A stretch of DNA of 64,000 nucleotides from Ancylobacter defluvii (GTDB lineage: Bacteria; Pseudomonadota; Alphaproteobacteria; Rhizobiales; Xanthobacteraceae): the NCBI RefSeq assembly GCF_018390605.1, contig NZ_JAHBGD010000017.1, positions 118,027 through 182,026 on the forward strand. The letters are read 5' to 3'. Shown piece after piece: positions 45,132 to 45,514 of the stretch. A model generated the notes under the pieces. That model was not told the DNA's origin, made no database searches, and was given only the letters and a program-made list of their open reading frames with translations. A program made the position numbers and the translations under genes. The first letter of the stretch is position 1. Every line of letters begins with the position of its first letter.

Positions 45132-45329
45132 CGTCACCTCCCGTATCGAGAGGCCGTTCCGATCGATCGGAATGGCACTCGAATCCAGACATGGAGCCTT
45201 GTTCGGGCCGATCAGGCGCCGCTCCGCTCACCGAACATGTCACACCGCAACCCGATGTGAACAGTCGTGCCGTAAGGGAGGATGACGTCGGCGCGAATCA
45301 CGTTAAGCTCACATCGTCGTCAACAATCG

Positions 45330-45422
45330 AAAGGAGGTGATCCAGTGTCTGATCGTCTTGATCCGCGGTCGTCGGTATCCGTGACCTGGACTCTTGCCTT
45401 TAGCGAGGTCCGTGCCGCGTGA
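45330..45422 (+). CDS. Candidate 25-aa small protein with a maximal Shine-Dalgarno sequence
   Basis: AAAGGAGGTGATCC (45330-45343) is complementary to the last 14 bases of standard 16S rRNA. GTG 45345 stands seven bases after GGAGG and opens a 25-codon frame ending at TGA 45422: begins MSDRLDPRSSVSVTWTLAFS and ends EVRAA. The coding part is 45345-45422. The frame extends upstream to an ATG at 45282, but that start has no spaced ribosome site. A hairpin with a UUC loop (near 45434) and a clear terminator (45481-45514) follow. It may be an independent small gene or a leader peptide for the next gene. I do not recognise the family. Confidence 0.55.
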   Translation, partial: KGGDPVSDRLDPRSSVSVTWTLAFSEVRAA

Positions 45423-45480
45423 TGCGACACAAAGCACCGTCCTTCGGACGGTTACCGGGCCGGGCCGCGGTCTGACATGG

Positions 45481-45514
45481 GAAGGGCTGTCCTCACGGGC
45501 AGCCCTTCTTTCTT
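45481..45514 (+). terminator. Rho-independent terminator after the small ORF, upstream of yaiI
   Basis: GAAGGGCTG (45481-45489) pairs exactly with CAGCCCTTC (45500-45508) and is followed by TTTCTT. It lies 59 bp after the small ORF and 32 bp before the yaiI start. It either ends a small independent transcript or works as an attenuator. Confidence 0.8.

Follow-up and report, generated by a model that had tools for sequence, protein, structure and literature searches.

A candidate ribosome-gated small RNA of Alphaproteobacteria with a ribosome-binding site complementary to the 3′ tail of 16S rRNA

Several bacterial small RNAs (sRNAs) serve a dual function, SgrS/SgrT, Spot 42/SpfP and RNAIII/hld being examples. 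In leader peptide attenuators such as trpL and ilvL a short open reading frame (ORF) is followed by hairpins and a terminator, and in RNA thermometers, translational riboswitches and translationally coupled genes the Shine-Dalgarno (SD) sequence is occluded by an intramolecular segment resembling the anti-SD. CC2171, an sRNA of Caulobacter, reportedly goes back to the work of Landt in 2008. Rfam files it as a non-coding sRNA gene (RF01867), and no ORF is noted in its records there. Rfam 15 lists CC2171 among the families with improved structure (PMC11701678), and the open-access papers that we searched name it only there and in a study of Mesorhizobium huakuii (PMC5596092); the passages concerned mention neither an ORF nor 16S pairing. 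A literature search by motif returned only a 16S reverse primer. For Sinorhizobium meliloti, rnTrpL/peTrpL is described in a passage of PMC10117765 as a dual-function sRNA.

Here we analyse a locus of Ancylobacter defluvii within a window of 64,000 nucleotides (the whole stretch of DNA studied, to which all positions refer; all features lie on the plus strand). With CC2171 it shares a full-length match, the 5′ block cAAcaAucGAAAGGAGGUGAUCCAGUGUCU and a closing helix adjoining the terminator, but its score stays under the family cut-off. Like dual-function sRNAs, it is a small free transcript that ends at an intrinsic terminator and holds a short ORF with the look of a translated one; in contrast to them, its peptide is unconserved, its ribosome-binding site extends over all of the 16S tail and any role in trans would be hypothetical. 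The layout of a short ORF, then hairpins and a terminator, recalls trpL and ilvL, without the conserved downstream regulated gene or the run of codons for a single amino acid that mark such attenuators. As in mRNAs that sequester their own ribosome-binding site, an anti-SD-like segment can occlude the SD, but here the occluder belongs to the short ORF itself, close to the stop codon, and the SD arm spans the whole 16S tail and sits in a second, interleaving long-range helix.

An earlier, sequence-only reading of this DNA had singled out a 25-codon ORF behind a 14-nt perfect match to the 16S 3′ tail. The match is real (AAAGGAGGTGATCC, 45330-45343, 0 mismatches) and was understated. The organism's own 16S rRNA ends in ...GCGGCTGGATCACCTCCTTTCT, and the complement GAAAGGAGGTGATCCAG extends over 17 nt (45329-45345), from the penultimate base of the tail, with the usual mature end assumed, to the foot of helix 45. 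Its duplex with the single-stranded 16S tail is predicted at −29.9 kcal/mol; sites elsewhere in the window average −6.1 (SD 2.9), and the best of these reaches −22.7. All other 14-mer matches in the 64-kb window carry three mismatches, which bears out the claim that the pairing exceeds that of the ordinary genes around it. Elsewhere in the 5.28-Mb genome the exact 14-mer recurs only antisense to the 16S 3′ end. We rejected an origin as a 16S-derived fragment or antisense 16S, since the match ends with the 3′ tail, the remainder of the locus is unrelated and the second genomic match is the 16S gene itself.

The ORF (45345-45422) runs from a GTG at 45345 over 25 codons to a TGA at 45420-45422; its predicted product, MSDRLDPRSSVSVTWTLAFSEVRAA, matched no Pfam family. 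The spacing called ideal in the sequence-only reading is 7 nt downstream of GGAGG, and the hairpin, terminator and yaiI that it placed behind the ORF are all present. A longer in-frame ORF of 46 aa from an ATG at 45282 was discarded, since that ATG sits in a −35-like element. The hairpin (45436-45452) is predicted to carry a UUCG-type loop, lies between the stop codon and the 3′ arms of a long-range helix described below (helix B), and varies in sequence among congeners; it also scored as terminator-like on the minus strand. The intrinsic terminator (45481-45514) consists of a 12-bp stem, a 4-nt loop and TTTCTT, and was not listed by a simple terminator scan of the window. Altogether, the predicted fold of the RNA is stronger than that of shuffled sequences (z = −3.3). 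The gene 3′ of it, on the same strand, encodes YaiI/YqxD (PF02639).

The RNA gene (45320-45514) is a homologue of RF01867. The covariance model matches over its full length (45321-45506, model positions 1-159 of 159) with 68.5 bits and an E value of 4e-14 to 2e-14 (1.2e-13 for the whole genome), and model positions 1-30, the conserved 5′ block with its SD-like segment, are matched identically. As the score is below the gathering cut-off of 75 bits, we speak of a homologue and do not file the locus as a family member; an Rfam search of the window at gathering level returned nothing, and CC2171 appears only at a lower threshold. Relatives do reach the cut-off, with 83.9 bits in the same order and up to 91.1 bits elsewhere. 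This kinship with a catalogued RNA family was absent from the sequence-only reading, as was the pairing of the SD with a 16S-tail mimic within the ORF.

Homologues were found by the model in 85 of 385 sampled alphaproteobacterial genomes (E ≤ 0.001), 13 of them above the gathering cut-off, while the strict pattern AAGGAGGTGATCNNRTGTC matched 74 of the same genomes and its reversed control none. About one in five of the sampled alphaproteobacterial species, or more, carry the element. For the family to which the window belongs, matches came from 48 of 101 genomes, congeners among them. In a phylum-wide draw of about 213 genomes outside Alphaproteobacteria, the strict SD-start pattern matched six (G495, G721, G511, G522, G560 and G588), either by chance or as distant homologues; of the matches listed by a scan across all GTDB genomes, almost every one is alphaproteobacterial. 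One genome, G012, has two copies of the element (C1:805114 and C1:2922049), with the start contexts GATCGAATG and GATCCGATG.

Several observations indicate a free-standing gene. A likely core promoter (45282-45309) consists of a −35-like ATGACG (45282-45287), a 16-nt spacer and a −10-like TAAGCT (45304-45309), and would place the RNA start at about 45316-45320. The segments TGAC, CGAATC and TAA-CT are kept in all six congeneric loci, and most other lineages show CTTG...CATA/TATA-like elements at equal distance; a sigma-70 scan of the window found no E. coli-type promoter. An intrinsic terminator is present in 66 of 68 homologues, whose median RNA length is 175 nt if 25 nt before the start are assumed, compared with about 195 nt for the window RNA. 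Upstream and downstream gene families change with the lineage, and yaiI lies 3′ in only about 17 loci, which argues for a free-standing gene and not for a yaiI leader; promoter-like elements of its own together with an intrinsic terminator are consistent with this. For the Mesorhizobium huakuii homologue MH_s33, a passage of PMC5596092 reports a 215-nt transcript by RNA-seq. The sequence-only reading was to fall if relatives conserved neither frame nor SD and no transcript existed; frame and SD are both conserved and this homologue is transcribed (PMC5596092).

We examined the reading frame in 69 loci found with the Rfam model, which is blind to the ORF. The segment AAGGAGGTG is invariant in all of them; the base behind it is A in 56 loci, with G in 12 others, and T replaces the last C in six. 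Exchanges of A for G (opposite U) and of C for T (opposite G) keep a wobble pair with 16S rRNA, and tolerated changes that do not are fewer. Sampling by the model is biased towards the conserved 5′ block and a portion of helix B1, so that the invariance of the 5′ block is partly built in; this does not hold for the frame and the stop. The spacer between SD and start measures 7 nt in 68 of the 69 loci, the start codon is always ATG, GTG or TTG, and 68 have a frame 0 of 18-35 codons. The exception, L195 (genome G379), has the model-matched SD with the same 16S complement before a 55-codon frame resembling a secreted protein (MKILAAASVLAFGTVLSGAALAGC). Stops in frame +1 are scattered, and frame +2 often ends at codons 1-4. 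When loci were grouped by record title, and not by length, codon 19 was a stop in 12/12 Rhodobacterales (TAG 7, TAA 3, TGA 2) and in 17/18 Sphingomonadales (TAA 9, TGA 8), with freely varying codons on either side; in Bradyrhizobium the ORF has 14 codons in 5/5 loci. An in-frame stop that stays in place while TAA, TAG and TGA replace one another is, as far as sequence comparison can tell, a mark of translation to a fixed stop, and argues that ribosomes translate the RNA. The homologues hold a conserved short ORF with its start, SD and stop, as is looked for in a dual-function sRNA.

The peptides are alike within lineages and differ in sequence and length between them. The synonymous fraction in frame, compared with expectation, was 0.28/0.31 in the Ancylobacter group, 0.41/0.29 in Rhodobacterales, 0.31/0.27 in Sphingomonadales and 0.49/0.24 in Bradyrhizobium, with the other frames equally raised in some clades. 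Comparison with relatives, as the sequence-only reading had proposed, hence upholds frame and SD and does not yield a consistent excess of synonymous change in frame, which leaves frame, start and stop as the support for the ORF. The peptide as a conserved product was set aside because the codon test was not consistent across clades. Two reports may be leads bearing on the translation of CC2171: two of the ncRNAs of Landt 2008 are reported as translated in Caulobacter in a passage of PMC4117421 that does not give their names, and the account of S. meliloti SEP1 in PMC10117765 describes a 23-aa, acidic peptide, conserved in Rhizobiaceae, whose translation efficiency is the highest among the novel ORFs of that organism.

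The SD arm, besides being complementary to 16S rRNA, is the 5′ arm of a helix (helix A) whose 3′ arm is a 16S-tail mimic inside the ORF (CTGGACTCTTGCCTTT, 45386-45401). In the window, helix A is interrupted (TCCAG/CTGGA and AAAGG/CCTTT), and longer versions occur in congeners and relatives; many homologous ORFs hold CTGGATC..TCGCCTC or an equivalent, i.e., a partial copy of the 16S tail that can pair with the SD arm. Across 68 homologues, pairing of the SD arm with the later part of the ORF beats shuffled sequences (mean z = −1.45, Fisher p = 5e-17), compared with controls of z = −0.22 for the 50 nt past the stop and −0.46 for the reversed ORF. Two bases of the SD arm vary, the one preceding the start codon and the first base of the start codon itself, and both covary with their partners: 108 of 176 are paired where 90 are expected, a value reached in 0 of 5000 permutations, which here and below correct only partly for relatedness. 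Of the 29 cases that are significant individually, 26 have the mimic ending within the ORF, usually 2-22 nt and mostly 10-20 nt before the stop. Its position tracks ORF length with r = 0.71, a value to be taken as indicative since longer ORFs were also searched over a wider range. The recurrent peptide motifs TWI-AS/TW-x-AS and EQPS are the translation of the helix A arm, and lineage-specific "conservation" of short peptides may be a shadow of RNA pairing. In some members of Sphingomonadales and Rhodobacterales helix A is scarcely detectable. A locus from a Rhodospirillaceae MAG (L112) repeats 12 nt of the 16S tail exactly, as GCGGATCACCTCCGC, past its stop (ORF nt 95-116; duplex −27.1 kcal/mol).

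A second helix (helix B) ties the 5′ part of the ORF to the sequence before the terminator. Its outer part B1 joins CCA-GTGTC (45342-45349) to GACATGG (45474-45480), adjoining the terminator, in the minimum free energy fold, and in most homologues it likewise pairs codons 2-5 (TCATTGTC) with GACAATGG, with compensatory changes among relatives. The inner part B2 joins codons 6-10 (CCGCGGTC, 45363-45370) to GGCCGCGG (45463-45470), which precedes the 3′ arm of B1. As a single alignment of all type-I homologues grew to 544 columns and was unusable, we tested pairing without alignment or on anchored segments. Anchored alignment of 72 loci gave 412 paired cells compared with 379.5 ± 4.7 after permutation (maximum 400), and in the alignment-free test of the ORF 5′ part against the pre-terminator segment, run on the model-derived set, own partners scored 17.35 against 13.87 ± 0.34 for permuted ones (0/5000). 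In some lineages the arms are wholly different and nonetheless complementary, as with ATGAGATT/AATCTCAT and GGATTATAAAT/ATTTATAATTT. The Rfam structure line of CC2171 covers part of B1 and neither B2 nor helix A. Because the arms follow one another in the order SD, B 5′ arm, mimic and B 3′ arm, helices A and B interleave, and either form a pseudoknot or are mutually exclusive folds. In the window A is the less stable (−81.9 versus −88.0 kcal/mol for B); free folding returns A in some homologues and B in others. In Rhodobacterales loci such as L037, L042 and L062, a second SD-like segment, GAGGTG, lies within the ORF (codons 8-10) and finds its partner in a CACCTCC that precedes the terminator, so that both the internal element and the terminal one are of another kind than in the window's lineage.

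Anatomy, conservation and covariation can be read directly from the sequences, and on this basis we lean towards a working model in which the locus is a free-standing gene for a translated, ribosome-gated dual-function RNA of ~195 nt whose fold reports translational capacity. The SD arm stays near-constant while its internal partner drifts, so that an invariant partner outside the RNA must hold it, 16S rRNA being the obvious one; selection would then act on the loading of ribosomes and their passage through a short frame up to a fixed stop, and not on the peptide. In the proposed cycle, a ribosome-binding site complementary to the whole single-stranded 16S tail would be gated by the interleaving helices, A closing the site through the mimic and B tying codons 2-10 to the sequence adjoining the terminator. 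A 30S subunit pairing with its full tail would displace the mimic to initiate, and the elongating ribosome would melt B and A. With the stop usually 2-22 nt past the mimic, a ribosome pausing there to terminate would have the mimic under its footprint, so that the next 30S subunit would meet an open site. We infer that the RNA is translated in Ancylobacter defluvii and that gating kinetics and stop-codon position act in this way; that its fold, and hence its stability or an activity in trans, senses ribosome supply is a guess. More speculative still, and to be entertained only tentatively, is a class-wide riboregulator of free 30S subunits, in which the invariant segment would pair either with the 16S tail or with its copy in the RNA's own frame, and this competition, locked by translation to the fixed stop, would set the shape of the RNA and its action on other genes. 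What the sequence-only reading had called a dedicated tiny gene with extreme initiation has stood up well, as a free-standing unit whose SD, start, spacing and in-frame stop are conserved class-wide. A family long catalogued as non-coding sRNA would emerge as a conserved micro-mRNA whose ribosome-binding site fits the 16S tail in full. If the gating is true, the RNA offers a system for studying the readout of spare ribosomes and the restraint of an over-pairing SD, and it may link spare ribosomes to gene control across a large bacterial class.

The RNA might instead, in line with the ribosome-titrating RNA offered by the sequence-only reading, be a trap or decoy that binds 30S subunits with near-maximal affinity for the 16S tail, where helix B blocks accommodation of the start codon, subunits are titrated or stored and the ORF is incidental. 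The 17-nt complement would suit such a trap, as would helix B beginning in the mRNA channel just past the start codon; yet in-frame stops at fixed positions with TAA/TAG/TGA exchange, and a standard start and spacing, would be superfluous, and a single-copy gene would have to be very abundant to titrate ribosomes, so we regard a trap as unlikely. We think it similarly improbable that the locus is a plain micropeptide gene with a functional product of 14-30 residues, the structure merely tuning expression. Peptide similarity within lineages speaks for it, and so does the high translation of S. meliloti SEP1 (PMC10117765), at most a candidate homologue. Against this, the peptides differ in sequence and length across lineages, the excess of synonymous change is inconsistent, and TWI-AS and EQPS fall in the very codons that form the helix A arm.

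Anti-SD sRNAs with C-rich loops are known in Alphaproteobacteria, and an exposed, invariant SD segment within a small structured RNA could act as a sponge whose GGAGG soaks them up. Conservation reaches beyond this core along the entire match to the 16S tail, with GATCC and the 5′ G likewise kept, and the SD is accompanied by a start codon 7 nt away and by a stop that is conserved too, which makes a sponge quite improbable. Least probable is a leader peptide attenuating yaiI, as the sequence-only reading had also envisaged: yaiI follows on the same strand behind a terminator here and in about 17 loci, but most lineages have other neighbours there, and no antiterminator pairing was seen, helix B adjoining the terminator stem without overlap.

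Upstream of the RNA favoured here, a ribosome-gated dual-function transcript, two further features were observed. An imperfect palindrome, TGTCACA-N10-TGTGAACA (45238-45263), lies between the divergent ggt gene and the RNA promoter, is partly kept in congeners and resembles a regulator site. The promoter spacer itself holds GAATC (45295-45299), an instance of the CcrM methylation motif GANTC. At about −50 from the start codon, GANTC occurs in 6/6 congeners and in 20/47 related loci, and overall in 37 of 157 loci compared with 16.7 expected by shuffling, which could mean cell-cycle (GcrA/CcrM) control of the RNA in some lineages.
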